64,000 nucleotides of DNA from Capsaspora owczarzaki ATCC 30864 (lineage: Eukaryota > Opisthokonta > Filasterea), in assembly GCF_000151315.2 (NCBI RefSeq), contig NW_011887300.1:12614-76613 (forward strand). The letters are read 5' to 3'. Both the position numbers and the translations under genes were made by a program. Within the stretch, counting starts at the first letter, position 1, and the number at the start of each line of letters is the position of its first letter. The notes below the pieces were generated by a model. The model had not been told where the DNA came from. It worked only from the letters and a program-made list of their open reading frames with translations, and did no database searches. Below, in pieces: positions 10,732-54,400 of this stretch.

Positions 10732-11058
10732 TTACAACATTGCACCAATTTCGCGACTTGTCGTGCCGTCTTCAAAGTTTCGCAGACCTTTGATGAGCTG
10801 CGTAAAGCTTGGTCGCAGCTCTGGGAGAATGTTCCAGCAACTGAACATGAGGCTAAATAGGTCAGATGTGCAGTGCTCTGGCGTGGGCAGCCGACCGCCT
10901 CCTTCCAAATAAGCCAGAGTCTCACGCCCATCCATCTTGCCGTACGGCGTTGCGCCGTAGCTACAGCACTCCCCTGCAACCAAGCATCGCCGTCGGTGAG
11001 AACAACGTGTTGGCCTACATCATCGCGATACATGTCGAGCCCGCGACTTACAGGCTGT
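10732..11058 (-). CDS. Severed 3' end of the receptor kinase gene
   Basis: The last 7 nt of the interrupted exon (11058-11052), an intron with GTAAGT donor and GCAG acceptor, and the final exon 10973-10732. The final exon encodes the end of a tyrosine-kinase C-lobe: SYGATPYGKMDG, RLPTPEHCTSDLFSLMF, then CW and LRPSF, the usual end of subdomain XI. The tail after the kinase is only about 20 residues. The reading frame shows no decay, so separation from the rest of the gene appears recent. Confidence 0.85.
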
Positions 11059-14000
11059 TAGAGTGACGGTCTCTAAATCCGGATGGCGCCTCCTACGGCC
11101 TGTGTGCAAGCTTCCGCTCGCGCCTTGCCCCCCTGTGTCAATCAGTGCATCAATACCAATGTGTGGGTGAAGTAGCGGGGCGCTTTGGCCCGAACTCATC
11201 GCTAGGCACGCGAAAAACGAAAAAATGACGAAAAAGCGGATCCAGCCAAAATCCAATGCATCCGGATTAAAATGCAGGTGTTTTTGGGGCCGCCACGAGG
11301 TTGATCGCAAACGCGCCCTGCGGGCTCTGTGACATCGCCAGCCCGCCTTCCGCGAGCCAAATGCAGTCTACACACGATAGGTGTTATCGTGACCAAGCGG
11401 GCGCGGAGGTGCGGTCGACACGAGCGTGGGAATGGAGGATACGCTCGAACACCACTTTTGCAGCCAATCCATCGTGAGCTCCCGTCCGGCTGCTAATCGC
11501 TCTTCGAGCTAGATTGATGGAGTATATGACATATCAAACCATTTTATTCAATAAACAATACAAAAATCAGGCAGAGTTTACATTTAGTGCGACGAACGGC
11601 CGTCGGTGAGCATTTGTTGCTTGTTTGCTCAGGCGAATCACAAGAGATGGTGGATCTTCAACACGAGGACGCTTGTCAAGGTGCTCAGGCGTCGGGGCAG
11701 CATTAGAGGCTAGTTGAGTAGCGGAACTGCGCGTTGGGAGGCGACTTTGGCGCATGCGGGCCACTAGTTCATCGGTAAACTGCACTCCGTCGTATGAACC
11801 GTCGCTGTCGGACCTTTCAGAGAATGTTCGTTTTGCTGGTGTGATTGCGATCGTTTGCTGGGTCGTCAGGATGGGGAGCGACGGCGAGGGCAGGCTCTCA
11901 GTCGGATTTGCAGCAACAGGCTCTGCAGCCTGCGACAAAACTTGCTCTGATTGACGCAAAGCAATCTGTCGGGCACGAGCGGGAGTTTGAGTACGAGCAA
12001 CAGGGGCTCGAGTACGTTTCGGAGTTGAAGCTTGAAGTGCGGCCAGCTCGTTGCGAGCTTGGGCGAGCTCTGCTTCGCGCAAAGGGTCTTGCAACTCGGC
12101 GGCGGCGGCGAGTTCAGTCTGCAGTGCACTGATTCTCCGTGTCAGAGCAAATTTTGCGTGCTCGGCGGCGGCCTCGGCAGCCATGGTACGTGACCGGTTC
12201 ATCAATCGAGTCATCTCCTGCGCAATCTTCGTTTGTTCTTGCAGTTTTTTTGCGTTCGCCCGCTGCATTGCCTCCTCGGTAATCGCCAGATACGCGCCTT
12301 TCGTATGCTTGTGCTTGTAGGTAGTGCTGGTTTGAATTGCGAGGGAATAGGAAGCACGCTGCACGATATCATCGACGGTGATGGGGACGCTCAGCAACTC
12401 GCGAAGTTTGCCAACGTGACTGAGTGCATCTCGTTCTAGCGCCTCGGAACTGGGACCAGCTGCAAGTTCAACATCGGCATCATCGAGGATTAGGCGAGCC
12501 TTCTTGAATATCAAACGCACCGGCGAAAGCGAGGGAGCAGGGTCTGGGACGCTGGCATACCCGCTCTCCACCGAGGGCAAAGGCGGTGTGGGGTGGGATA
12601 TCTCGGCACTCTCGACGACGGGCAGCGTTGGAGTCGACAGGAGATTGGGGACGCTCGCCGTGTCTGTGGGCGTTGCAGAAACTGGCTGGACGGGCGCAGC
12701 CAAGGCCTCTTTTCCTATGAGTGATTCAGTTCTGCTCGCATGGTCCGGGCTCACCACCCACTCGCAGTATGCATTCTTGTCCAAAGGCCAGATTCCAGTC
12801 TTTTTAAATCCAGCAGTGATGACGGCTGTATTTTGCGAAATCTTGTACCACGCATTCAGAGCGCAATGCACTCGCATTTGGTCGTCCGAGGCAAAGACGC
12901 CAGCTGCAATCGCGCTCGCATACTCTGCTTGTAACTGACGCTTGAAGTAGCCAAACACAGTGCGATCGAGTGGCTGAGTCTCAGTGCTCGTGTGCGCGGG
13001 CAAGACAAGAATCTGAATTTGATCGTAGAAAAACTCGGCCACCAAATCGTGCTCGAGGCTGTGCGTGGATGAGCCATCCATGATCAAAAGCAGCGGGCCT
13101 GACGGGTGTCTTTCTCGCATGCAGCTTCGCCACTCGCGCAGATAAGTTTTGAACAAGTCTGAGGTCATGTACCCCTTCTCGGTCGTTGCGGTAGAGCAGG
13201 CGTCAATGGGAACGTGTTGGCAAACCGTCGCGACGTTCGTACCCTTCGTAAAAATCAGCATGGGAGGGAGCGGCGCAGTTCCATCGGCACACACCAAGAA
13301 GACGCCGGTGATGTGCCGTCCGAGGCTGTTGTTGTGCCCACCGCCAACGAGCGCGACACGACCCCACGATGCCCCTAATACAGTCGATCCCTTGACGCGA
13401 GAAGAAATCTCGCTCTCGTCAAAGTTGCTGACGCGGCTCGGCTCGACGGTAAGGAGAGGATGTTGATCGTAGGCCTGTTTGAGTTGAGTCGGGAGAGTCC
13501 CGAGATTGTCGGGTGTCAGCGCTGCAGCCCGGCACACTTCCAGCACACGGCCCTTTCGAAGCCTGACGCGTCCCTTCGCTCGCTTCAAAAAGGTGGCCCA
13601 CCAGGACCGGCTAGGCGTGTCTTGGACAAACGCCCGCCTTGGTGAGCCGTCGAAAGAAGTTGTTTCAGAACACGGTTTCAAGTACTTGGCGGCCTGCGCT
13701 TTCGTCAGACAGCATGACGCGCGAGCAAACGCTTCCAATAAATTGATAATTGCATCAACTTCGTGATCGGTAAAGATGGGTGGTCGGCCTTTCGTGCGGG
13801 TGGACCGCGCCAGCTCGATCACTTCATCCAGCGTTCCAGACTGAATCAGTTCGCGGTGGCCCGCGTGGAGTTGAGCCCAGTCACTGACAGTCGACTTTCC
13901 GCACTTGAAGCCAGCCTGCCCCAGCCGCGCGGCGACCTGTTCACATGTCCATTGAAATGGTGTTGTCGTACAACCAGTCGAGAGGGTCAGCGGACCCGGG

Positions 14001-17000
14001 GTTAGCAGCTTGAGGGCGATGGCGATGGCGATCGGTCGTCGGTTTTTTCCAGCCGCCTCGGCGAGTCGCCCAAACCACCCCGCGACGATCGCAGCCACCT
14101 CAACAAGACACTCCATGTGATAACCAACTCGATTTATGTACAATGGTGAAAGAGCCGAGGCGAAGCGATGAATAGACTGCGAGAAAAACGCCTCATCCGG
14201 ATTAAAATGCAACTCTCGAGGTCTGTAATGCGTCCGGATTTAGAGACAGTTACTCTACGCCGAACGACCACACGTCGGACATGGTCGAGAACTTGCGGAA
14301 GGTCATTGTTTCCGGCGCCATCCACTGCATGTGAAACGAATAGTCAGTATCCCAAATCACAAGCAGCAACATTTGCACACACACCTTTGACCCACCTTCA
14401 CGGGAAGTTTGCCACGCGTTTGCATGCGATAGTAATCGTTCTCATCGGCCAGCTGTCGAGAGAGCCCGAAGTCGGCAATCTTGACCACCATCCCTTGCCC
14501 CACAAGACAGTTGCGCGCGGCAAGATCACGATGCACAAAGTGCAGCGTGCCCAGATACTCCATGCCCAGCGCAATCTGACGAATGGCATGGATCTGCTCA
14601 TTCTGCGTCCACCAAAACGACTGCTTTTTGGACTTTTTCAGAAGAGTGTGCAAATCACCGTACTGCACAAACTCGAGCAGAACGAGATGGGGCTCTGACT
14701 CTACAAGAGCCGCGAGCAGGCGCACGACGTTCGTATGCACAAACGGCGCCATCAGCTTTGCCTCGCTTTCAAAGTCTTGACGAGATTTCTCATCTGCATC
14801 AGACTTGACAGACTTGACTGCAACCTGCACGATCTCGGGCGTCGTAGATCCGAGCAAGGCCTGTGCTCGCGGGGGCAACATGTTGAACGGCACTCGACCC
14901 AGTGCGACATCGCCAAAGTTACCACTGGCAAGGTACTTGACAATCGTCAAGCCTTCACGAACACGACGAGAATTGCTGCCGGCAACATACGCGCTTGCAT
15001 AATCGTAGACCACCTCTGCAGCATCAGTCGAGAGAGCTTGGTACAACGGATCTGGCTGCTTTTGCCCGACGGCGGCGTAAGCTTCAATGTCCTCCTCTTT
15101 GTGAGATCCCGTCGAATGGTTCAATGGAGAGATTTTCATTTCAACAGCCTCCTGATAAACGGGACCGGTAGAATCCTTCGGTCGCTTGACTGTGCGTTGT
15201 GAGCGCCGGCGGACGAGCAAGAGAACAACCAGTGCAATCAGAATGAGCGGAATCAGGACGACGGCGACAACCCAGCCCTGCGAGCCGCCAGCAGCTTCCA
15301 GCGTCGTGGCGGACGTGCCAAAGGGACCCAGGCTAAAGCCAGCAGCAGTGAAGGTGCGAACGCGGAAGCGGTACTTGGATTCAGCAGCGAGGCCAGAGAC
15401 TGTGGTCACGTTGCGGCCGTTCGTCAGCTCGGCGTAAACGACAGGCACGGGCCACGTCTCATTGTAGCCAGAAAGAAGGCGCTGGCCTTCGACGACGTAC
15501 GAGACGATGGGGCCATTGATGTCGTCCACAGCGGGCCAGGAAACGCGCGCCTGGGTGTCCGAGATCGGGATAACCGTGGCTTGCAACGGGGTCGGGGGAA
15601 GGCCGGGCAAAGTGCGGGCCAGCACCTGGATGGCAGACGAAGTCAACGAGCTTCCAATCACAAAGACATTGAAGGTGTAGTTCCTGTAAGGGAGCAATCC
15701 AAGGAACACCTCCTGATAGGATTGCTGCGTGGCCGTGTTGTAGGCGGCGTTGTCGGCAGGCAAAGGGGTTCGGGGCGGAGCGTTGACAAAGGTCCAAGCA
15801 CCATCCTCTTCTTGCATGTAACACTCGACACGGTAAGTGCTCAGAACGCTGTTTCGCTCCCAAGGCTGAGGGCCCTTCCAGCTGACAGTAATTGACGTGT
15901 TGGATGTAACTTGCGCATCGAGCAGACTTTCGTCCAGGATGGGGGCGCTCGGGGAGGTCGTGAAAGTGCCGGTGCGCGAGTCGCTCGGCGGCGAAGTACC
16001 AGCACCGTTCGTCGCTTGAACAGTGACGGCGTACGTGCGGAATGGGAAGAGCGAAGTAATCGTTCGGGTAAACACGTTGGCGGCGCTGTTCGAGCTCTGA
16101 GTGGGTGTCGCATGCGAGTCGGTAAAACTAGTGTCAACAACCGAAACAGTGTAGCCCGCCAGTGTTCCGTATGGGAAGTTTGGCGCAGCATAGGTGATAC
16201 TCGCGCCATTCGCGTTGGGGGTCATGGTCAACGTTTCAGAGCCAGCAAAAAGAGGAGTTGCTTCAGTGGTTTTGAAAGTAACTGCAGCGCCGAGTGCAGT
16301 CGATCCCTTAGAATTGACGGCAGTGATGATGTACGCATAATCCGTGAATGGCGTCAAACCAGTGTCTACGTAACTCGAGGTTGTGAGACCGGAAACAATT
16401 GGAGTGCCACCGCGACTAACCGAGTAAGTCACAGCGGACGCGTCTTGAGGGTACGGAACATCCGGCCATTCGAGAGTGATTTGGCGGGACGCACGATCGC
16501 CCGTAAGGGACGACTGAGTCAAGGCACCCCAGCTAGGTTTAGAACCAGCGGTTGTCACGGTCAGGAACGTGTTGCTCGGAACAAAGTTGTTGGTAGAGCT
16601 TTTAACGTGCACAGTCACATTGTACTGCACATAGGGTTCATAACCAGTATTCGACGCTGCGGCGACTGTCACGGCGGCCGAATTGATGGACACGGTTTGG
16701 GAGAAAAGGGTCGGATCGGGGAACGCTGGGCTTGCGGTGATTTGAGTGGCCACAACTCGATACTTCAGGTTGCTTGGATTGTCTTGAGCATAAACAGGAG
16801 CCGCCCAATTAAACACGAACGCGCTTGTGGTCTGTCCTGAGGCAGACAGAGTGGGAGCGGTTTGCCAAATGGGGTCCGCGGGGTCTTGACGCAAAGATGA
16901 GACAGAAGAGAACGGCGAGGAGAAACCAGAGTTTGCATTCTTGGCCAAAACTGTCCAAGTGTAAATGACGCCTGGGTAGAGCCCAGAGACAGTAGTGCTC

Positions 17001-20000
17001 GTGGCGAGGAGAGTGCTGCTGAAGGTTTGGATGGTTTGAGAGCCAGGGTTGGGTTGCCCAGCTGTGTACTGAACCCAATACACAATGGGGTCACCACCGT
17101 TCTTGGTCGTAGGTGCAGGCCAAGAAATGTCTGCGGTGGTCGTCGTGACATCAGAGGTCGTAATGGACGGTGCGTTGAAGTACGGCGCGAGAGCAGGCAC
17201 ACTGACGGAGCCAGTCGAGGGAGTCGAGGACAAAGGACCAGCGTTTGTGATTGTCCACTCCAAATCGTAGACTTGGCTCGCTTGCATAGTGACCGTGGTG
17301 GTGTCAGATGTAAATGTCGGGGCCGAGGTGAAACTGCCAGAACTAGTCAGCTTGTATCGCAGCAAAAATGTCACACTGGCTGAGGCCGGAGTGCCGCGAT
17401 AGTACGCGCCAGTCAAATTAAACGTCACAGCATAGCTGGTTGGTCCATTCGAAACAAATGCAGGCACGATCTGACTGGGGTCAATAGTTGGCGGGGCAGC
17501 GGCGGTTCGGATTGAGGAAAGGATGGCGGTGGTAGAGTACTGGTCATTGCGCACAGTCAAACGGTAATCGTAAACCGTGTAAGGCGCCAACGATGCATCG
17601 TTGTCGGTCGTGGACAAAGTCGCAGCGGCGAACGTCCCGACAGACACAAAAGACCCTTGAGGGTTGTTGAGACGGCGTTCAACCAGCCATTGCGTGGCAG
17701 AATTGGTAGTGGGGCCGTTGATGAGCGTAAGAACGCCATTCCATTCCAGTGAAACAGAGTTGTACGTCTGTCCCGTTGATGTGAATTGGCCTGCCACGAT
17801 TGTCGGTGCGGCAGCAAGCGTCTGGATGTTGGAGGCGGTCAGAACAGCAGAATCATACGTATTCCCGCTACCGCTTCGGGCGTAAACAGTGAAAGTGTAC
17901 TGGTTATAGGCGCGAAGGTTGGAGACAGTCACACTGTTCGTGGTGACGACACCTGAGCTTGGGGAAGGAGCTGGAGTTCCGCTGATCGTCCAATAGTAGT
18001 CACCAGTCAAGCTGTTCCATGTCGCTGCCGTCCAAGAGAACAGGATGGAATTGGCGGCCGGAGTTGACGACACAGTAGAACTGGAGAAGGTGGCCTGAGA
18101 CGCGGCAGTTTTGAAGGTCGCAGTGGCAACAGTGGACAAGTTGGCTGTTGGTGTTTGGCTGTTTCTTGCCTGCACACTGTACGTGTAATCAGTGAAGGGC
18201 AGCAAGCCAGTATTGTCCGTGGCCGAAGTGAGACTGTCAGCAAAGTTCTTGATCGACAGCACCGAGGGTGAAGTTCGGTCCACCTTATAGAAGAGAGGAC
18301 CACCGCCATTAGCTGTACCAGTCCATTGGAACGTGAGAGAGTTCGACGAGTTTGCGGTCACGCCGAGCGCAGTAACGGTCGGATTGTCGGCAAAGGTGGT
18401 GAACGTGGTCAAGTACACAGGATCCGAAGCATTGCCTTGTGCGTTGGTGAAAACCAGAGAGAAGGCGTACGTCGCGCTCGGAAGCACACCAGAGCTCAGG
18501 GAATAGGATGTTGTCGTGGTCGGACTGACCAGGGTTGCAGCACCCGAGTTAACTGAAAGACTCAGTTGATAGCCACTAGTTCCGACTGAACCAGCGCAAG
18601 GGCTCAGTGCTGAGTTGGTCCACGAAAAACTGAACGCATTGTAGGTGTAACTAAGCGAGGTAACGGTCGGTGAAAGCACTGCCTTGTCAGCGAGGGTGGT
18701 GAAGCTTTTAGCGGGCGTGGTGAAGGATTTGCTGTCACTAGTAGTCGCAGTTAGAGTGTACGAGTAAGCGGTGCACGGATCCAAATCCAGATCGTCGGTA
18801 AAGAAAAATTGGCCGGTCGCCGAAGTGGAGCTTGTTCCCCCTGGAAGTGTCAGTGTAGTTGACCCACGCTTCAGAACAAAAGTGATTGGCGTGGGTCCGT
18901 TCAGAGTAGTCAAACTCCAACCGACAGTGACAGAATTCTGGGTGATGTACGGTGCGGTGGTCAAGAAAGCGACAGTGGGAGGAGCAGAGGCCGTGGTCAC
19001 ACTGAGTGCACTGACGGGAGAGCTCGTGGAATTGCCGGCAACGGTGGTCGCTCGGACAGTGTACGTGTACGAGGTGTATGGTAACAAGCCCGAATCAGTA
19101 AAAGAAAACGGTTGCGGGAGTGAGCCAGTGTAGGATCCAGTACCAGCCGGCAGTGTCGTTAAATCGACTCCGTTACGTGACAGAACTTGAGCCAACGCCA
19201 AGTTGGACTCCTGACCGCTGCTGGTAACCGTCCAACTGAGAGGGACTTGAGTGGCAGTGATGGTGCCGGCAGCAAGGGCAGTGCCGATAACAGGGGCGAC
19301 AGAGTACGTTCTGCCCGTGAAGACTTGATTAACACTAGCGGTACCAAGAATTCCGCTAGAAACAGTGATCCTGACATTGTAGTTCGTGCCAGGTGCGAGC
19401 ACAAGCGCAGGAGCCGATGTGCCGCTAGAGTAGCCCGTCCAGCCGATGTAGCTGCCGCTGGCCACCTTCTTGTACTCAACGGTGTAGGTGATGGTAGCGG
19501 GTGGTCCAGCGGTTGACGCACCGGTATTGGCGACCAAACTCGGCCAGGAGAGAGCGTGTTCATTCACATTTGATGTGGCGTACATCAAGATGCTGTCAGC
19601 ATTCAGAGTCACATCGTTTGCGGTCGTTTGGGAGTTTTGGGCCCCAGCCGATCCAACGAGAGTTCCGCCAACTCCAGAGTTAGAGTAGACGGAAACAGTG
19701 TAGGTGTAGGCAGTGTTTTTGGTCAGGCTACTGTCAGCGAATGTCAGGGCAGTGCCAGTGTACACAGGCGTGGCAGAACCAGGAGTGCGAGTGACACGAT
19801 ATTCCATAGGTGAAGCAAAGCTGCTATACGCAGCCCAATTGAGCGTGATGGAATTGCCAGTGGCTGCCGTGAAAGTAATTTCGAGATCCGCACGAACTGC
19901 CAGGAGAAACAACAAAAAGATCAGCTCAAATCTTCCAGAACCAATAGAGCAACAAACCGCACTTACCAGAGCCCACCGCAGCCAAAAGCGCCACAGCGAG

Positions 20001-20021
20001 CAACAGCAATCTGGGCTTCAT
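10732..20021 (-). CDS. FN3-repeat receptor tyrosine kinase, split by a transposon
   Basis: Exons: 20021-19967, 19896-14396, 14324-14256 joined across the inserted element to 11058-11052, and 10973-10732. Ignoring the insertion, the frame closes exactly at 1,957 aa. Exon 1 encodes a signal peptide, MKPRLLLLAVALLAAVGS. About 1,540 extracellular residues follow, made of roughly 17 fibronectin type III repeats (TxYxYTVxA strands recur). The membrane segment is near residues 1560-1581. The juxtamembrane region is tyrosine-rich (VYDYASAY). The kinase has VAVKSVK, HRDLAARNC (tyrosine-kinase type, about residue 1807), DFG and a WMAPE segment after the splice. The glycine loop reads LASGNFGDV, with Ala at the first Gly position. 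The transposon interrupts DVWSFGV, so this copy should not make a complete kinase. Confidence 0.88.
11061..11085. repeat. Left terminal inverted repeat of pogo-like element
   Basis: Pairs with 14231-14255 at about 20 of 23 positions. Flanked outside by TA at 11059-11060. Confidence 0.9.
11567..14116 (-). CDS. pogo/Tigger-type DDE transposase, 849 aa
   Basis: Catalyses cut-and-paste transposition of the surrounding element. The first ATG is at 14116; the frame is open further upstream but only from a TTG. The N-terminal 100 residues have a helix-turn-helix-like stretch (VARLGQAGFKCGKSTVSDW). A CENP-B-like segment with SWWATFLKRAKGRVRLRKG follows. The DDE_1 catalytic core shows NFDES near residue 231, MDGSSTH near 346 and QPLD near 382, a D-D36-D arrangement typical of pogo. 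The last 350 residues are Pro/Ser-rich with an alanine-rich coiled coil, longer than in most Tiggers. No internal stop is seen. AATAAA lies at 11548-11543, 19 nt after the stop. Confidence 0.9.
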   Translation of the reverse strand: MECLVEVAAIVAGWFGRLAEAAGKNRRPIAIAIALKLLTPGPLTLSTGCTTTPFQWTCEQVAARLGQAGFKCGKSTVSDWAQLHAGHRELIQSGTLDEVIELARSTRTKGRPPIFTDHEVDAIINLLEAFARASCCLTKAQAAKYLKPCSETTSFDGSPRRAFVQDTPSRSWWATFLKRAKGRVRLRKGRVLEVCRAAALTPDNLGTLPTQLKQAYDQHPLLTVEPSRVSNFDESEISSRVKGSTVLGASWGRVALVGGGHNNSLGRHITGVFLVCADGTAPLPPMLIFTKGTNVATVCQHVPIDACSTATTEKGYMTSDLFKTYLREWRSCMRERHPSGPLLLIMDGSSTHSLEHDLVAEFFYDQIQILVLPAHTSTETQPLDRTVFGYFKRQLQAEYASAIAAGVFASDDQMRVHCALNAWYKISQNTAVITAGFKKTGIWPLDKNAYCEWVVSPDHASRTESLIGKEALAAPVQPVSATPTDTASVPNLLSTPTLPVVESAEISHPTPPLPSVESGYASVPDPAPSLSPVRLIFKKARLILDDADVELAAGPSSEALERDALSHVGKLRELLSVPITVDDIVQRASYSLAIQTSTTYKHKHTKGAYLAITEEAMQRANAKKLQEQTKIAQEMTRLMNRSRTMAAEAAAEHAKFALTRRISALQTELAAAAELQDPLREAELAQARNELAALQASTPKRTRAPVARTQTPARARQIALRQSEQVLSQAAEPVAANPTESLPSPSLPILTTQQTIAITPAKRTFSERSDSDGSYDGVQFTDELVARMRQSRLPTRSSATQLASNAAPTPEHLDKRPRVEDPPSLVIRLSKQATNAHRRPFVALNVNSA
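14231..14255. repeat. Right terminal inverted repeat of pogo-like element
   Basis: Inverted copy of 11061-11085, with TA immediately outside at 14256-14257. In the receptor gene the junction falls inside the codons for SFGV of the kinase domain. Confidence 0.9.
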
Positions 20022-31445: not shown

Positions 31446-33986
31446 CGATGGCGTTTGCACCGCCGTTTTCGCACCCAATGATGCTTCCCATGCATGCAAT
31501 GCCGATCGGCGTCCCGCTGCCCTCGAGTGTCGCTCCGACCTCGATGCCGTCCATGGGCGCGATGCATGCCGTCCATCCCGCTCACGCAGGACCCGCCGAT
31601 GCAGCAGTGTCATTCCCTGCGACTCGCGCAATCACGGCTCCCTCATCATCTGCTGCTTCTTCTTCTTCTTCTTCCACCCCATCTCCTCCGCCTCCTCCCG
31701 CGCCCGTCCTATCTCCCTCGCACTCCACCACCAGCACCAGCAGCAGCAGTGTCCCTCTCCACCACCACCAGCAACACTACCAGCAACATCAGCAACACCA
31801 GCAGCAGCAGCAGCAGAGTGGCACGCTTAATGGTGATGGTGCCGTTTTCTCAGGAAGCCAAACCGCACCAGCAACATTTTCCCAGCAGCCAACTTCCGGC
31901 TTTGGTCACCCGGGCATGTCGCACTCGCCGCCGCAGCCCGGCAGCCCCTCCGGCCAACACCGCGGGGACAAGTCGACGTCGCTGAGTGCGTCTGTGGTGT
32001 CGGAGCAGGCGCAGCGCCCGCAGGGACTCGGAGCGGCAACCGTGGGAAAGGGCGACTTTGGCCACCCGGCGAGCACCCCGCCAGTCACCGCCGCTGCCGC
32101 TGTGGGAATGTCCCCATCAGCGAGCGACCCATCAGCCACCTCAACGAGCACAANNNNNNNNNNNNNNNNNNNNNNNNNNNNNNNNNNNNNNNNNNNNNNN
32201 NNNNNNNNNNNNNNNNNNNNNNNNNNNNNNNNNNNNNNNNNNNNNNNNNNNNNNNNNNNNNNNNNNNNNNNNNNNNNNNNNNNNNNNNNNNNNNNNNNNN
32301 NNNNNNNNNNNNNNNNNNNNNNNNNNNNNNNNNNNNNNNNNNNNNNNNNNNNNNNNNNNNNNNNNNNNNNNNNNNNNNNNNNNNNNNNNNNNNNNNNNNN
32401 NNNNNNNNNNNNNNNNNNNNNNNNNNNNNNNNNNNNNNNNNNNNNNNNNNNNNNNNNNNNNNNNNNNNNNNNNNNNNNNNNNNNNNNNNNNNNNNNNNNN
32501 NNNNNNNNNNNNNNNNNNNNNNNNNNNNNNNNNNNNNNNNNNNNNNNNNNNNNNNNNNNNNNNNNNNNNNNNNNNNNNNNNNNNNNNNNNNNNNNNNNNN
32601 NNNNNNNNNNNNNNNNNNNNNNNNNNNNNNNNNNNNNNNNNNNNNNNNNNNNNNNNNNNNNNNNNNNNNNNNNNNNNNNNNNNNNNNNNNNNNNNNNACT
32701 CGTCCGCATCCAGCTACTACCCACAACACCACCAGAATGGCCTTGTCGCTGCCCCGACTGCGCCGTCGACGACGACCACTGCTGTTGGCAGTGCTGCATC
32801 GGGTGCCGGCATGGGCATCCACAACAACCCCGCTGTCATGCCGCCGCGCACTGTGCCAATGGTCAACTCGTTCGGTGAAGCCGCTCCTGCCGGTGGCGAT
32901 CACTGGCCCAAGACACCCTTCATGGGCAGCAGCGACGCGTCCGTCACAACCTCGTCCATCTCGTCGACGTCCTCCTCGTCCCACCGCCGTGACCGACTCG
33001 GCCGTGACCGTGAACGCGATCACCACAGCAGCCGAGACCACCACCACCACGCTCGTGAGCGAGACCATTCGTCGAGTGGCAAGCGCCACCACCACCACTC
33101 GAGCCGACGACACTCGCACCACCGCAGCAGCAGGCGCCAGTCGGACGACAGCGACTCGGCTGGCTCGGACGAAGATGGCTCGTACGCGCGCGGCGGATTG
33201 CGCCGTGCCCGAAACCACTCGTCCGACTCTGGCAGCAGCTCTGCAGAGGACTCGGACGACACGGACGCCGAGGACGACTCGCGCCGCCACACCACGGCCG
33301 TCACGCGCGCCAACGCTCGCCATGCGCTTGCGGAGGGCTTCCTGCTCGACGACGTGACCTGCGGCCAGTGCGGCAAAATCTTCCGCCGTCCCGACCGCCT
33401 TTCGGCGCATGTCCGCACACATGCCACCATGCGCCCCTTCGTGTGCACGATGGCCGATTGCAGCAAGACCTTCCGCGAGAAGGCCGCGCTGAAGAAGCAC
33501 ATGATTTCCCACGGCGACATTCGTCCGTACACTTGCGAGCGTTGCGGCGCGGGCTTCAAGTTCAACCACCACCTGAAGCGCCACGACACGCGTTGCCTCC
33601 ACCGGCTCAATCGCATCTGCGGCAGCAAGGCTCCGCCCACCGTGCAGCAGCGCGCGCTGGAGATGCTCAGCCAGGCTGGCTTTCGTGCCGTTGCTGGCAC
33701 TGATTCCGTGAATCTGGTCATGTTCAACCCCGAGTCGATGGCGACCACCAAGCCCGAGGAAGCAATGAGTGGCACTGCGCCGAGTGTCTCGTCTCCCGAG
33801 CACGAGCACAACATGTCCGCCTCCGACGATGCCAGTGAAGCGTCCAGCAACCAGCACTCGGCCTCCTCCCTCTCTGCCACATTCGATCTCCCCACTTCCT
33901 GGAAACCCGAGGATTCGGGCGCTGCTGACGCGCACTCTCGTTATTCTCTGGTCCCTGTTGCACCATCTGCGACGCCTGTTGCTTGA
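30992..33986 (+). CDS. C2H2 zinc-finger transcription factor (gap inside)
   Basis: The N-terminal part starts MMMQTQQMHTQAQQQ and is dominated by Gln, His, Pro and Ser runs up to the assembly gap. After the gap another frame carries a Ser/His/Arg-rich region, an acidic patch (SDSAGSDEDG) and three zinc fingers: CGQCGKIFRRPDRLSAHVRTH, about 33358-33420; CTMADCSKTF with HMISH; and CERCGAGFKF, whose last ligand is Cys in RHDTRC. The Kruppel-like finger order suggests a DNA-binding regulator. The frame differs across the gap, so the gap length is approximate or hides an intron. Total length cannot be given. The C-terminal 120 residues are Ser-rich. Confidence 0.7.
32154..32697. other. Assembly gap (544 N)
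   Basis: A run of N inside the zinc-finger gene, flanked on both sides by Ser/Thr- and Gln/His-coding low-complexity sequence, which probably defeated assembly. Confidence 1.
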
Positions 33987-46676: not shown

Positions 46677-49600
46677 TCACTGCTGCTTGCGACGATTCCA
46701 AAACACCAGCAGCAGATAGGCGATGAGCCGGAAGCCAACTCCAAGCACACAGAGCATGCCGAGATCGAACGGAACATTGTCCACACGGTATCCGAGGAAA
46801 TCCAGGGAACGCAACACGGGGGCGCGGAAGATGGACTCTTCGTCCGTGTAGGCCTTGGCCTCGGAAATGTAGAGTGCCTCCGCAGCATATCGGGGGAAGG
46901 ACACGTCCCAGATGATGCGCGCGACGCTGTACGAGTCACGAATCTGCGCCAGTCGGGGAGACAAGCCCGAGCACACGGAGAAGGCAAAGACCGCGACCGT
47001 GCCAACAACCATGGAGGACTCGCGAGAAACAATAATCGAGATAATGTAGCCGAGCCCAAATGCGGCGAACTGCGTCATGAAAATAATGACGAGCAAATCA
47101 CCAAAGCTCGTGATGGGTCGCAGCATGGGCGACAGCACCGAAGCAAACGCAAACGACGCGGCAAACATCCAGGGCAGTTCGGCGAGATACTTTGCGACCG
47201 TGTATGCCGCTCGGTTGGTGCCCCAGCTGGCTTCACGCCAGCAGACGGCACGCTCGTCGCCGAAATTGAACACGGCGATAATGATGGACGAGCTGCCGAG
47301 GGCGACAGACAAGAAGAAGGATGACGAGAACAAACCCAGGTTGAAGATTGGGAATGCGCGGCAATAGTGCTGGATGGCGGGAGGGCAAAACTCAGAGACA
47401 AAGTCGGGCAGGGGCGGAAGGTACAAGCGTGTGCCCTGCATAAAGCCAGCGCCCAAAGCCGCGGCGGAGAGAATGTGAATGCCAACAAACAAGATGGTTC
47501 CGGCTGGTGTTCGGAAACGCTGAAGCAGAGCTCGACCGAAAAAGACCCAGAACTGCGTGAGGGCCGAAGGGGAAACGCGCTTTTCAGGCATGCTCTTCTG
47601 GCTTGTCGCTTGAGACGCGTGGTTTTGGGTTGGCGCAGGGACAAGGGCATTGCTGCTTGGGGTGCTGGTGGTGGTGGTGGTGCTGGTGGTGGTGGCGGAA
47701 GGAGTTGCATCGCTCGGCACAACAGACAATCCAGCAGCACTTGCATTTCGATGCATCTCGACCACAAGCGTGTCCACCTGGTCCAAGGCCGCATCGGTCG
47801 AGGCAATCTCCAGCTGGTGCTGGGCAGAGTCGGCCAGGTTTGCCGACAGCCGCTCGAGCATGCCGCCGTTCTGCTTCCACAGTTCGGCCATGTGAGTTGG
47901 GTGGAAGGCGGGGTCGCCCTGGCGCGGAATCTTGCCAGCGAGCACGTCCAAGTAAAAGTCGGCGGGATTGCCCGTGGCCGGGACTGGGAAGCCGATCGAG
48001 CCAAAGTAGCCGGCAATCTCGGACGTGGGTCCGTTGTAGGCAGTAAATCCGCCCTTGCTCAGCATCAGCAGATCATCAAAGAGAGCAAAGACCTCGAAAC
48101 GAGGCTGGTGGATGACGGCAACCACCGTGCGGCCGGCGTTGGCAATGGCCTTCAAGCACTTGACGACTTCCCAAGCGCTGGTCGCGTCCAGGCCGGTGGT
48201 GGGCTCGTCCAACACGAGCAGCGACGGGTTGGCAACCAGTTCCATGGCAATGTTGACACGCTTGCGCTGACCACCCGACACTCCGCGCTTGACTTCATCG
48301 CCGATGCGCGAGTTGCGGACCTCGGCGAGGCCCAAAATGCTAATGACGGCGTCAATGTGTTGGTTGATTTGCGCGTTCGTCCATTCGCGCGGCAGACGAA
48401 GGCGGGCCGAGTGGGTGAGAATCTCGCCCACCGTGAGCATGGTCAGCATGACGTCCTCCTGAGGTGTGTAGCCGGTAATGTTGCGGTAGCGCGAAGGCTC
48501 GGCCTCGACGCCGTTGATGCAGACCTGGCCACCAGCGCGCTTGATTTTGCCCATGACTGCATTGATGAGGGTGGACTTGCCCGCGCCCGAGCCTCCCATG
48601 ATGGCCGTGACGCGATTGGCCCGGAAGGCGCCAGAGACGTTGTTCATGATTGTCTTGCCGGCAGTGACTGCTTGGTCTGTCTGGCGGATTTGCTGCATCA
48701 GCTTGCTCAATCTGGAGCCGGCAGAGGCCTTGCGGATGACGACCTTGATGTCGGAGAAGGTAATGTCCATGCGCGAAGGGAGCGGAGCAAGGACGAGCGC
48801 ACCGCGGCGGTCTTTGCTGGTCGAGTGGAGGTCGCGAGCATACTGGCGGTAGCGCCGGCGCTCGAGCGCGCGCAGGATAAAGTGCAACGCAACAAACACG
48901 GGAGTCAGAATGCCCAGCACCAGCAGGCCAATCACAGGAATGTGATTTTTGGCGCCCTTCGGGCACTGATCGAGCGGGCCGCACTTGATGGGCGAGACGA
49001 TGGCCTCGGGGCAAAAGTAACCCGCCGGGCACTCTTGGGGTGGCTGCATCGGGTCGGGACAAAAGTGGCCGGACGGGCAAAAGACGATCGAGGAGATGTG
49101 GCCATCGTATGTCTGGCAGCTGAGGCCCGGTTTGCAGATGGCGGTGCTGCCGACATGCTGGACGACAGAAGGGTTGGGTGTGCAGTTGGTGTGGCTGAAA
49201 ACGACAGGCGGCTTGCTCCACGCAGGATACGACGAAATCAGGTTGACTGGATCGGAGGTGGTGTAGACGTGCGAAACAGAGTTGTACTCGATGCTCCACA
49301 AATCGACAGAGTAGGGCTGGTTGAGCGAGCCTGCCAGCCCGTCGACCATCTGGGCGGCGAACGGCCCCGTCGGGTTGCACATGACATCAAACAGCGAGAT
49401 GAAACCGTCTGGACTGGCTGACGTGTTTGTGGATGAGGCGTAGCAGACACCGTTGAGGCAGTTCTGGCAGTACGGCAGATCGGGCGTCGTGGTGCAGCTG
49501 GCCTCGATTGCGTTCAAGCACAGGTCGAGCGTTGCCTGACCTGCGGCGGGGATGGCCGCGAGCGCGGATCCAGTCTGCGGTGCGCACAACGGTGCGTTGA

Positions 49601-50135
49601 CTGGATCTGAGCAGTCCGTCTTTGCGACAAAGCAGGGCCACCGCTGGAGCACGACGGTGATCTGGCCAATGGCGAGCGCCGTGTCTGGGTCTGCGAGTTC
49701 CTCTGCACACTCGCGCGCATTGGTGCTCGTGTGGACTGCCTGGTACGCCGTGAAGAGCTGGTCAAAGTCTGTCTGGCAACGGGAGCACGCGCAGTACGGC
49801 CCTGGAGCGAGCGGCGCGCACAGTGCAGCGCTGCCTGTCGCCGATGCATTTGCTGCGGTTGCGAGGCAGTCCCTTGCAGCGAGGTTGGCGAGGTTGAGGT
49901 TGTCGAGCAGCGTTGTGTTGCACGGAGGGGCAGCCGCGTTCGCACCGTTGAGCATCGAGAGCGACAAGAGTACCGCAAGCCCCAGCAGCACGCCTGCGCC
50001 TGTTCCTGTGCTTCGTCTTGATCCTGTTCCTGTTCCTGGTCCTATGCTTGATCCTGTTCCTATGCTTGTTCCTGTTCCTGTTCCTATGCTTGTTCCTGCG
50101 CTTCGTCGTGATCGCGGATGTTCATCGTTCGACAT
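46677..50135 (-). CDS. ABCG24/28-type half-transporter, 1,152 aa, intronless
   Basis: The order is unlike most ABCG proteins and like the plant ABCG24/28 group: a hydrophobic leader (VLLGLAVLLSLSML), a Cys-rich outer domain of about 330 residues ending in CxxGxxC patterns (CPSGHFCPDPMQPPQECPAG), one membrane span near residue 400, then the nucleotide-binding domain. Walker A GGSGAGKST is near 515, signature VSGGQRKR near 615 and Walker B LLVLDEPTTGLD near 643. A C-terminal ABC2 membrane domain of about six spans follows. ATG 50135 is chosen; upstream in-frame sequence is low-complexity. Residues 15-45 are a Gly-Thr-Ser-Ile repeat encoded by a minisatellite. Substrate unknown. Confidence 0.92.
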   Translation of the reverse strand: MSNDEHPRSRRSAGTSIGTGTGTSIGTGSSIGPGTGTGSRRSTGTGAGVLLGLAVLLSLSMLNGANAAAPPCNTTLLDNLNLANLAARDCLATAANASATGSAALCAPLAPGPYCACSRCQTDFDQLFTAYQAVHTSTNARECAEELADPDTALAIGQITVVLQRWPCFVAKTDCSDPVNAPLCAPQTGSALAAIPAAGQATLDLCLNAIEASCTTTPDLPYCQNCLNGVCYASSTNTSASPDGFISLFDVMCNPTGPFAAQMVDGLAGSLNQPYSVDLWSIEYNSVSHVYTTSDPVNLISSYPAWSKPPVVFSHTNCTPNPSVVQHVGSTAICKPGLSCQTYDGHISSIVFCPSGHFCPDPMQPPQECPAGYFCPEAIVSPIKCGPLDQCPKGAKNHIPVIGLLVLGILTPVFVALHFILRALERRRYRQYARDLHSTSKDRRGALVLAPLPSRMDITFSDIKVVIRKASAGSRLSKLMQQIRQTDQAVTAGKTIMNNVSGAFRANRVTAIMGGSGAGKSTLINAVMGKIKRAGGQVCINGVEAEPSRYRNITGYTPQEDVMLTMLTVGEILTHSARLRLPREWTNAQINQHIDAVISILGLAEVRNSRIGDEVKRGVSGGQRKRVNIAMELVANPSLLVLDEPTTGLDATSAWEVVKCLKAIANAGRTVVAVIHQPRFEVFALFDDLLMLSKGGFTAYNGPTSEIAGYFGSIGFPVPATGNPADFYLDVLAGKIPRQGDPAFHPTHMAELWKQNGGMLERLSANLADSAQHQLEIASTDAALDQVDTLVVEMHRNASAAGLSVVPSDATPSATTTSTTTTTSTPSSNALVPAPTQNHASQATSQKSMPEKRVSPSALTQFWVFFGRALLQRFRTPAGTILFVGIHILSAAALGAGFMQGTRLYLPPLPDFVSEFCPPAIQHYCRAFPIFNLGLFSSSFFLSVALGSSSIIIAVFNFGDERAVCWREASWGTNRAAYTVAKYLAELPWMFAASFAFASVLSPMLRPITSFGDLLVIIFMTQFAAFGLGYIISIIVSRESSMVVGTVAVFAFSVCSGLSPRLAQIRDSYSVARIIWDVSFPRYAAEALYISEAKAYTDEESIFRAPVLRSLDFLGYRVDNVPFDLGMLCVLGVGFRLIAYLLLVFWNRRKQQ
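50010..50100. repeat. Minisatellite coding GTGTS/GTGSI repeats
   Basis: GTTCCTGTTCCTATGCTTGT-like units of 6 and 18 bp repeat in the N-terminal coding region of the minus-strand ABCG gene, giving a Gly-Thr-rich stretch that is likely to vary between strains. Confidence 0.7.
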
Positions 50136-51476
50136 GTTTTTGTGGCTTTTGTTTTGTTTTTGTTTTGTTTGTTGTTGTTTTTTGATTGAAAATCGGAATG
50201 GGATTTTTTTTTTTTTTTTTTTGATTTTTGTGATTTTTGTTCTCTTGTTGCGATGCAGAATTGAAAGCAGAAAGAAGAGAAAGAAAGAACAGCCGAAGAA
50301 GAAGAAACAGAAGGATGAGACAGAGAAGAGATGAAGAGATGAAGAAGAAGAAGAGAAGATGAAGAGAAGAGATGAAGAAGATTTGAACTGAACTGAACTG
50401 ACTGAACAATCACACCACACAACAAGAAAAAAGACTGACCACGTCGACAAGCTCAAAAATAAGTACACAAAAGCATCAAACAAAAGCTCAAAGTGAGCAT
50501 AGAAAGTGGTGGTGCTTTGGAGGGGAAATTGAACAGCAAGACACGAGTAGCAAAGTGGAAGAAGGGAAGAGTTGAAGAGTTGAAGAGTTGAAGAGGGAAG
50601 AGGGAAAAATCGGCGGTTTGTCTTTTTCGCATTGACTGAACCCGCCGCCGCTCTCGTCCTTGTTCTCACTCGCTCAATTCCACCACTCTTGAAGTGTTTA
50701 CTTTGAATGACATCTCGAAGGCGCCGACCATTTGGCATCCACTCTCTTCTCTCTCTCTCTCTGTCTCTTTCTCTCTCTATCTCTGGCTCAACTCTCCAAC
50801 AATGCCAGCCGCAGGGCGCTATTTTCATCGCTTGCGGAACGTTCGCTCAAACTGCCGGCGGAACATTGCGCTCGTTTCGTCCGCCCGCTGCTTTTTTCCC
50901 CCCGCGCACGAGCCGGTTTTTGCGGAATTCGACCACGTCGGCAGTCCTCACAAGCAACAACGGAAAGCAAAACGCCTGATGCCTCGGCTGTTGTTCATTC
51001 CAACCATTCTGCATTTGCGCTGTGTTTTGAACCTGAAACTCCTTGTTTTCCCTCTCGTTCCACTTTGTCCACTTCCTTCCGCCTCCCATTTGCTTGACTC
51101 GGTCATCATTCTCTTTTTGATGATGATGATGATGATGATGTTGCATTCGCTCCCCAAAATCAGCTCGTTTTGTGGTTTTTTTAGTCTTCATTTTGTATTC
51201 TGATTCAGATTGTTAGTATTGTTGTTACTTTGTAGTGTTGTTTTCATTTCTTCACCGCAAAGCCAAACAACAGTCGTTTCCAGCCCTTCTTTACTCACTC
51301 ACTCACTCACTCCAACTCTTGAATCAGACTCTCTCAGATAACCCCCCTCCCCTCGTTTTGTGACAGAGCCAATCGCCAGTAGTTGCTGTCTCGCCCAAAT
51401 TCGTAGTCAAAACAAACAAAAACCTGAAGTCGAGATACACGGCCTGCCCCTGCCCCTGCCTGAAAACTGACACGAC
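50136..51476. promoter_or_regulatory. Shared upstream region of the ABCG pair
   Basis: 1.34 kb between divergent paralogues. GA-rich tracts lie on the left (50262-50380) and on the right a TCTC tract (50749-50786) and an ATG trinucleotide tract (51118-51140). Open frames here lack domain resemblance, so I read it as promoter and leader DNA for both genes. Confidence 0.45.
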
Positions 51477-54400
51477 ATGATGGCATCACCACGCACGACG
51501 CTGATGATGCTCGTCGCTGCGGTGACCGCGGCGATGCTGACGACCACGGCGATGGGCGACCCGGTCTGCCCGCCGCTCGACCCAAACCTCTTCTACTCGT
51601 GGAGCGGCTACGTGACGAGTCCCCCGACAGGCACCGTCTGCAGACCAGCAGTGCTCCCGACGAACGAGGTCTGCAGAATGTGCCAGCAGGTCCAGGTCCC
51701 CGTCGCGTTCTGCCCGCCTGGCTACACGCCTGCGCGCGACGAGCGCTACCCAAGCTGCCTGCTCTGCCCAGCTGGCTACTACTGCAAGGCAACCGGTGAC
51801 ACGTACCCGGTCGTATGCCCAAGTGGCCACTATTGCCCGGCAGGATCCACGTACGCTCGCGCGTGCTACTCGACCTCCGTCTGCCCCGAAGGATCGGAAA
51901 AGCAGGCCTTTTTGGGCGGATTTCTCGGGATGGCGCTCGTTCTCATCGTGCTCGCCGTCATCATGCACTGGCTCAACGCGCGGCAGCGAAAGCGCGCAGT
52001 CAAGTCGCTGCCAGTCACGTCGACCGCCACCATGCTGCCCAGACTCGGCAGCACCACGGCTCAGACCAATCCTGCTCTTGCTCTTGTCCAGTCTCGCGCT
52101 CCGCCTTCTGCTCCCAACTCGAACAGCACTGTTCGCGAAACCGACGACCTCGCGCTCGCAGCCGTCACGGACGAGCTCGCGAAAGGCGCCATCGGCATGA
52201 CCGTCTTCAACGCGAAAGCCGATGATGCCGAGCGTCAATCCATCGATGCCGATGCAGCGGACGCTGGACGAGACTCGTACTCTGTTGCCGTCCGTCCCTC
52301 CAGAACGCGCACCATCACCGCCACGACCACCGGCTCCGAGCAGCAGCAACAGCAGCAGCAACAACGACAGCCGGCGTTCGCTTCGGCCGCCAAGATCGAC
52401 ATTCGCTTTGACAAGCTTGGCTTGACCATCCGCCGAAAGTCTGGCATCATTCGACGCAAAGTCACCGAGCAAGTCATTCTGCGCGAGGTCTCTGGCGAGT
52501 TCCTGCATGGTCGACTCACCGCCATCATGGGTCCTTCCGGTGCGGGAAAGACCAGCTTGCTGAACGTTCTGTGCGGCAAGGCCAAGCGAACCTCTGGCCA
52601 CCTGTACATTAACGGACAGAAAGGCGAGATTGAGCAGTACAAGAAGGTCATGGGCTTTGTTCCTCAGGACGACATTATGCTGCGCGAGCTCACTGTCGAA
52701 GAGCTGCTCACCCACAGCGCGCGCGTTCGTTTGCCCGCCGAGCTCTCCCGCGCCGAGATTGCCCGTCGCGTGGACGGTGTCATTGCTACTCTCGGCTTGA
52801 CAGAGGTCCGTCAATCGCGCATTGGCGACGAGCTACGCCGCGGCGTCTCTGGCGGTCAGCGCAAGCGCGTGAACATTGGCATGGAGCTTGTCGCCGAAAC
52901 GGCGTGCATCTTCCTTGACGAGCCCACCTCCGGCTTGGACAGCTCGAGCGCCGAGGAGGTGACCTCTGCACTCCAGACAATTGCGGCCTCTGGCATCAAC
53001 GTCATTGCCGTCATCCACCAGCCCCGCGTCGAAATTTTCAACATGTTCCACTCAATCATGCTCTTGGCGAAGGGAGGCATGGTGGCCTACCACGGCCCGA
53101 CTGCCGGCGCGCTCGGCTACTTCCACGAAATTGGCTTTGCGGCCGTTGGCAACACGTCCGCGCCAGACTATCTGATGGATGTCTTGTCGGGCCATGTTTC
53201 CCGCCGTGCCGTTGGAGGAGCAACAACGACTGCTGATGACCAGCAGCTGTCTGTCGCTCCAGAGGACCTGCACAAGGAATGGCAAAAGCGCGAGCCTGAA
53301 GTTACAGCCCCGGTGCTGTCCGAGCGGTCGAGCTCCTTTTCGCGAGTTCGGTCTCTCTCCAAGCTGCTCAAATGGAACGAGCCCATCCACCGCACGACGG
53401 CCGCCTTCCCAACGCAGCTCGTTCTTTTTGCCTACCGGTCCATCCTCCAGACCCGGCATGCCGTTGGACGGTTCCTGCTGGACAACTTCCTCTTTGCCTT
53501 CACTGGCGTCTACATTGGTCTCAGCTTTTTGGATCCCAAGTACGTGCTGCCCATCCCCACGGCGGTCAGCAACTATTGTCCCAACACCCTGTCCCAGCTC
53601 GTGAATGGTTTGGTGTCTGCAACCCCGCAAGGCGGGGAGAACTTTCGCAACTGGTGCTCCAACTGCTCGCCCTCCGAAGAAAACATTGGTCTCATGGGCA
53701 TTTACATGTGCATGGGCATCGGTGTCATGGCCACAGCAGTGAGCGTGCGCACGTTTGGTGATGAGCGGATTGTGTACTGGCGCGATGGTGAGTGTCGCTT
53801 GTGATTTGCTTTTCGTGGGAATCCCATTGAAGCTCATTGTTTTTTTGGTTTTTGGGTTTTGTTTTTTGTTGCTTGTCAGCTTCGTCCGGTATCAACACAT
53901 TGGCCTACTTTATTGGCAAGTGTGTCGTGGACTTTGCCAAGTTTCTGTTCTTCACCTGGAGCTTTTTGGCGACCTTCATGCTGGTTGCGGCGCCTTTCGG
54001 ATCCTTCAACGGCTACTTCCAAGTTGTCCTGGCTGTGATTTGGTGCATGTCGTCGCTTGGATACATAACATCGATAGTCCTTTCGCGGCAAAACTCTGGT
54101 TTCACGGCTGTCATGCTGGGCATCATTTGGTCTCTGACAACCGGCTTTGTCTTTTCCACAGAAAAGGTATGCTAGGTTTTGTTTCTTGCTGGCCTTTTTG
54201 CTTCCATGATGGTGGTCGCTGATGAGTTTTCCATTGTTCTGTTGCTTTTTTTTTCTTTTTTTTTTGCGTCAGCTTGGATTCTTTGGCATCATTTCCTTCC
54301 CTCGCTGGTTTGGCGAAGCCGTGTTTGCGGTGGAAACGGCTGACATATCCTCTGGACCACACTCTGTCATTAACACGGTGGTGCTTGCCGGCGGCCAGGC

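Follow-up and report, generated by a model that had tools for sequence, protein, structure and literature searches.

Transposons of the pogo/Fot1/Tigger type carry a DDE_1 domain in which the third acidic residue is D, use TA as their target and have short inverted ends. Five families of pogo-like elements, Cop1 to Cop5, were reportedly described from Capsaspora owczarzaki by Suga in 2013, and a radiation of receptor tyrosine kinases in the same organism is said to have been described by Suga in 2012. Here, we describe a DDE_1-type transposon that interrupts an exon of a receptor tyrosine kinase gene within a 64,000-nucleotide stretch of this genome (hereafter the window), which corresponds to C9:12614-76613 of the 27,456,641-base Capsaspora assembly of 29 contigs. 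Other loci are named by contig, from C1 to C18. Two published GAPDH primers match this assembly exactly and face each other across 532 bases, long for a qPCR product, and the many receptor kinases and TA-targeted DNA transposons also fit Capsaspora. No match was found for a 90-nt coYki arm, for a 47-nt part of it with up to 3 mismatches or for a coYki primer with up to 1 mismatch, and the assembly may be incomplete.

The Cop families are present in low copy number and have kept TA as their target, and each of them includes recent copies that are identical (PMC4007536). The number of RNA-seq reads assigned to them ranged from 32,779 to 65,112 for Cop1-Cop4 and was 457 for Cop5 (PMC4007536). The window element resembles these families as a low-copy DNA transposon with a TA target and identical recent copies. 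On the side of the host gene, the locus resembles the Capsaspora receptor radiation in its many close kinase domains and in the different ectodomains of two members looked at by eye, but the window copy is interrupted within the kinase. In Capsaspora aggregates, two receptor kinases whose ectodomains are of the DERM and fibronectin-3 kind were raised, and exon skipping was found to be enriched in kinases (Sebe-Pedros 2013, PMC3870316). The word 'kinase' is absent from the main text of Carr and Suga 2014 (PMC4007536), and no transposon insertion in a receptor kinase or in the tRNA ligase gene RtcB of Capsaspora was found among the openly licensed papers listed, supplements aside, which is weak evidence of absence. 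The event itself is mostly ordinary. Active pogo-like families are already known from Capsaspora (PMC4007536). What is new here is that a relative of the element interrupts the RtcB locus at a TA.

A transposon at a TA within receptor exon 3

The inserted transposon occupies 11059..14257 on the minus strand, with 3,195 bp (11061-14255) between the flanking TAs. Its terminal inverted repeats (11059..11083 on the left and 14233..14257 on the right, 25 nt each including the TA) were 92% complementary, with TA at the end of each arm. A 14-nt core of these ends occurred without mismatch at just two places in the window, both of them ends of the element; with up to two mismatches allowed, three matches were found, the additional one at 4187, where shuffles gave an expectation of 0.23. 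A subterminal 18-nt direct repeat of identical letters lies near each end (11259..11276 and 14194..14211, plus strand), giving two matches against 0.01 expected. An open frame of 890 aa (11567..14239, on the minus strand and thus the receptor's; first ATG at 14116, residue 42) encodes a transposase with a DDE_1 match (PF03184, E 1e-16, 61.4 bits against a Pfam cut-off of 22) and the candidate acidic triad D274, D388 and D425, chosen by eye. Behind its stop codon, AATAAA at 11543..11548 (minus strand) is a candidate poly(A) signal as a motif. TA was found at both ends of the window element and of all 4 further copies with two recognisable ends. In three more copies the left end alone was recognised, one of these (L012) having a damaged right end.

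The element is therefore a DDE_1-type DNA transposon with short inverted ends and a TA target, and it looks autonomous. The DDE_1 domain, the TA, the short inverted ends and the candidate third acidic D are shared with the pogo/Fot1/Tigger type. The window transposase differs from that type in the ~400 residues that follow the DDE_1 match and may differ in its N-terminus, where no CENP-B or psq-type domain was found at the Pfam cut-off. The sole helix-turn-helix match was to HTH_32, at 20.9 bits under a cut-off of 33.7. No CENP-B or psq-type domain was found in five relatives, in which the matched pieces lack the first 40-100 residues. The element may be called pogo-like, as a first-pass annotation of the window had it, and may or may not be pogo in the strict sense.

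The receptor gene lies on the minus strand. Exon 1 (19967..20021) holds the ATG, a signal-peptide-like leader and a GTAAGT donor, and is followed by a 70-nt intron (19897..19966, GTAAGT...GGCAG) and by exon 2 (14396..19896), which encodes fibronectin type III (FN3) repeats, a transmembrane stretch, and the N-lobe and upper C-lobe of the kinase. A second intron of 71 nt (14325..14395, GTGGGT...CATGCAG) leads to exon 3, which is split by the element. Specifically, its 5' part (14258..14324) runs through WSFG and the first base of V, reading ...SDVWSFGV on the minus strand at the right junction, and its last 7 nt (ACAGCCT, 11052..11058) stand before a GTAAGT, in the same place as in paralogs. Intron 3 (10974..11051, 78 nt) keeps its position in 28 of 29 paralog loci, and exon 4 (10732..10973) supplies the lower C-lobe and the stop codon. 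Pfam matches of exon 2 were to fn3 (E 3.6e-61, six stretches) and PK_Tyr_Ser-Thr (E 3.5e-44), and exon 4 covered positions 196-257 of 258 in the latter profile (E 5e-14). The product of exon 4 aligns with the C-lobes of solved kinases, and the nearest solved relatives of the window kinase are the DDR2 and TrkA kinases. By its ectodomain, its membrane span (a hydrophobic stretch recognised by eye) and its tyrosine kinase domain, the gene is a receptor tyrosine kinase.

With the element taken out and one TA kept, the junction reads ...SDVWSFGVTAWECCSYGATPYG... and the four exons give 1,957 codons and a stop. Exon 3 of the receptor is interrupted by a transposon at a TA, as both the reading frame and the target site show. 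The assembled allele instead reads ...WSFGVE and then a stop, giving a predicted protein of 1,876 aa whose kinase is incomplete; since the frame stops at FGVE, the lower C-lobe is absent. The first-pass annotation had placed an element at a TA in a receptor exon within the kinase domain, had given the gene the same coordinates and 1,957 codons free of stops and frame changes, and had predicted a truncated kinase without the lower C-lobe; the inverted ends, the TA on both sides and the empty-site reading bear this out.

Paralogs provided a comparison for the insertion point. When the genome was searched with exon 4 (79 aa), 95 matches were obtained, the best 30 of which were cut as loci, one being the window itself. 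Exon 3, the short intron and exon 4 were uninterrupted at the insertion site in 28 of the 29 others (25 by script; L043, L044 and L064 by reading), so these paralogs serve as independent empty sites for the insertion point. In L047 and L057, the letters spanning the site, GGCGTAACAGCCTGTAA, are the same as in the window gene. The sole exception was L060, which has exon 4 and other sequence in the place of exon 3. By eye, L064 encodes an odd kinase with several unusual residues and the same intron stretch. These oddities suggest that the receptor family may also hold decaying members.

A second search used the 219-aa kinase part of exon 2, with 150 of 276 candidates scored; counts refer to the matches listed. 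At least 39 other loci matched at 67-91% identity, and below those identities were 54% or less, bar two short pieces (C18:154045, 90% over 71 aa, and C8:1173531, 59% over 59 aa). A nearer relative on C18 (L048) showed FN3 identities of 75% (439 aa) and 67% (178 aa), a kinase at 84% and an exon 4 at 75%, with the site uninterrupted. The ectodomains of the paralogs at C9:1130998 and C6:1233799 seem leucine-rich-repeat-like by eye.

Copies, age and constraint

A copy on C5 is identical to the window element over all 3,199 bases, which by the rule of three places the pairwise divergence below ~0.1%. The copy at C10:798896 has 1 mismatch, and that at C10:608427 has 3 mismatches and one gap. At C10:1345834, in a locus whose N count is 2,418 bases, 1,818 bases agree without a difference. 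The copy at C9:249078 has 3 mismatches and a 100-bp insert and is missing the last letters of its right end. Shorter or more diverged pieces were found on C4 (768 bp, 95-96%), C1 (101 bases, 96%), and C7 and C2 (77-93% in pieces). The translation surrounding the C5 copy repeats itself, and no gene was recognised around the two copies on C10 that have both of their ends. Related elements near other receptor paralogs, at C9:1135044 and C6:1239534, were considered as possible further receptor insertions; they lie ~2.4 and 1.9 kb upstream of the recognisable part of the receptor frames.

Two side observations concern these copies. The 100-bp insert, at about 2459-2558 of L012 (C9:250458-250557), has inverted ends by eye and is possibly a miniature inverted-repeat transposable element. 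At about 757-956 of L074 (C14:503156-503355) lies a 200-base right-end fragment at 94% identity, with the right end alone recognised.

Constraint on the receptor exons was compared through the ratio of nonsynonymous to synonymous rates (dN/dS) with 27 of the 29 paralogs, leaving out L053 (exon 3 missed by the pattern, though intact) and L060 (no exon 3). Median dN/dS in exon 4 was 0.202 for the window gene against the 27 paralogs and 0.239 among the paralogs (350 pairs with a value, 1 saturated). The corresponding values for exons 2-3 were 0.127 and 0.134 (351 pairs); pairwise values are not independent of one another. Otherwise invariant columns were changed in the window gene at 0/105 positions in exons 2-3 and at 1/25 in exon 4. 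Taken together, nothing in these measures suggests that the receptor decayed before or after the insertion.

The identical 3,199-bp copy, the copy one base off and an exon 4 as constrained as in the paralogs support a very recent insertion, and the element family appears to be currently or very recently active. The first-pass annotation had likewise proposed a very recent insertion into a functioning receptor, to be doubted if the receptor exons had accumulated mutations. The accumulated mutations did not appear in dN/dS or the invariant columns, and the exons are undamaged and under ordinary constraint. The word 'functioning' calls for some softening, as at least 39 other loci match the kinase exon at 67-91% identity and the receptor may have been neither needed nor unique.

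Predicted outcome for the receptor

We consider it very probable that a DDE_1 transposon, from a family that is or very recently was active, entered one receptor tyrosine kinase paralog and that the result is a truncated kinase whose loss is tolerated. The element landed at the TA of exon 3 in one member of a large receptor family, and the assembled allele would encode the FN3 ectodomain and the membrane span with a kinase cut within helix F, after the shared glycine, V and E. The DVWSFGV...WE segment is helix F of the kinase, and a cut inside it would be expected to leave no catalysis. Since the transposase lies on the receptor's strand with AATAAA after its stop, receptor transcripts that read into the element would probably be terminated at this poly(A) signal, going by the motif. 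The loss could be tolerated through the ~40 close paralogs, or the insertion could be heterozygous or polymorphic in the culture. The insertion, its target site, the frame, the identity among copies and the constraint on exon 4 are observed, and the transcript ending, the loss of activity and the heterozygosity are what we infer.

Several points weigh against this explanation. In-frame splice combinations that would take out the element exist on paper. No empty receptor allele was found in the assembly, where exon 4 has one 100% match and the next best is at most 78%. Transposons are often collapsed in draft assemblies (Carr and Suga, PMC4007536), so the 100% identity among copies may be partly an assembly effect. 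Finally, the assembly holds just five near-complete or long copies besides the window's, compared with 15-51 copies for each Cop family as counted from raw traces (Carr and Suga, PMC4007536).

Collapse of repeats in drafts (PMC4007536) also bears on the idea that reads of another copy were joined into the receptor by the assembly, and N runs are present in two other copies (L009 and L016). Both junctions, however, stand exactly at the TA with complete inverted ends, the flanks fit to the base across one TA, unlike a misjoin, and the receptor junctions are anchored in unique flanks despite possible collapse. Such an artefact is the least probable of the explanations considered.

The splice combinations raise another explanation, namely that the transcript loses the element by splicing, like an intron, leaving the receptor and RtcB functional. 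Introners, mobile elements that insert as introns, occur in other eukaryotes, and like the window element they are DNA elements in coding exons (PMC9860276). At the receptor, GGC/GTAGAG can be joined in frame to TTTAGAG/ACC with four residues in place of one, and a GC donor 3 bases before the junction can be joined to the natural intron-3 acceptor in frame with the loss of VTAW. At RtcB, a GT donor just within the element would add 13, 28 or 35 residues (41 GT/GC combinations were listed). Two further receptor donors avoid the stop yet read exon 4 in another frame and were rejected.

Donors were scored with a model made from 52 family introns, in which GT donors were scored and GC donors were not, and whose exon letters are biased, as these introns come from two positions in a single gene family. 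None of the 15 GT donor candidates near the two junctions scored above -2.4, whereas the lowest score among the 52 family introns was 3.2; those near the receptor junction ranged from -17.2 to -2.4, compared with 3.2 to 13.5 for genuine family donors. Unlike introners, the element ends without a convincing splice donor, its scored GT donors falling outside the genuine range. Family introns are 61-84 nt long, against an element of 3.2 kb, and none of the listed in-frame combinations restores the original codons. The scores thus give no support to an element spliced out of mature transcripts, the other circumstance that would have told against the first-pass annotation. Splicing-out of the element appears unlikely from these sequences, and a receptor and RtcB both kept functional in this way would be very unlikely indeed.

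A further explanation would be a fixed, homozygous insertion after which the kinase-less receptor is retained because it acts as a decoy or in a dominant-negative way. There may already be a relative without a kinase, as C1:913403-915508 is 95% identical to the FN3-to-membrane-span region of the window receptor (over 702 of 713 aa; frame of 1,629 aa) and the nearest kinase match among those listed for C1 is ~140 kb off. This C1 partner may naturally lack a kinase. Alternatively, its kinase may sit in sequence that is missing or lies beyond the part covered, and a gap or a different kinase at this locus would take away the precedent. Exon 4 is also free of decay and relaxed constraint, and the age of the element leaves too little time for selection on a truncated form to show. 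We regard retention as a decoy as improbable, if less so than splicing or misassembly, and favour a truncated kinase whose loss is tolerated.

The interrupted RtcB locus and what it may imply

A relative of the element, 768 bp long and with an internal deletion, lies in a coding exon, at a TA, at C4:623936-624703 (1037-1804 of L014), and matches the window element at 95.7% over 536 bases and 95.1% over 244. With one TA kept, the flanks join into one reading frame. The upstream 187 aa matched solved RtcB ligases (E 2.3e-106) and Pfam RtcB (E 1.5e-68), no Pfam match was found for the 42-aa piece directly downstream of the insert, which is partly intron, and further downstream exons presumably read on to the usual RtcB end. 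In an RtcB search of the genome, a single locus matched strongly, and the only other match was weak and partial (38% over 57 aa, E 1e-6). The interrupted C4 locus thus appears to be the only clear RtcB tRNA-ligase locus in the assembly.

RTCB was named as a G2/M-cluster gene and reported as expressed in Capsaspora (PMC7098662). A broken only copy and the reported expression are most easily reconciled if an intact allele is also present in the culture. According to the reasoning of Phillips and co-workers, the cells of Capsaspora may be diploid (PMC9170242), and an empty receptor allele may consequently exist. The presence of the same family in the only clear RtcB locus favours a heterozygous or polymorphic insertion over tolerance through paralogs or a fixed loss, and insertional heterozygosity for both the receptor and RtcB is the reading we prefer.

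It is also conceivable that TA-bounded elements are precisely removed from coding genes, whether from the RNA by weak, intron-like splicing or from the DNA by an efficient transposase whose excision restores one TA, so that RtcB works. Ciliates have TA-bounded internal eliminated sequences, an analogue of precise excision. If such removal did occur, the genome would carry reversible gene interruptions; we think this most improbable and retain heterozygosity as the preferred reading.

Other features of the window lie apart from the receptor. A 525-aa open frame at 40-1614, without a match in Pfam, presumably resembles the end of a LINE-type reverse transcriptase protein. A run of 544 N (32154-32697) falls within an open frame that is Q-rich and zinc-finger-like by eye, and adjoining ABC-G-type transporter genes in opposite orientation lie at 46680-50843 and 51474-53801 (Pfam ABC_tran, ABC2_membrane_7).

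A simple PCR across the receptor site could serve to follow the activity and excision of the transposon in the one long-kept culture, and the RtcB case leads to a question that can be tested, namely whether unbroken copies persist in the sequenced strain. If the insertions were not heterozygous, the loss of a tRNA ligase would need explaining. If the receptor and RtcB insertions are heterozygous, the reference genome shows mutant alleles as the gene, and gene models, kinase counts and knock-out designs would need allele checks in a genome that serves as a main model for animal origins.

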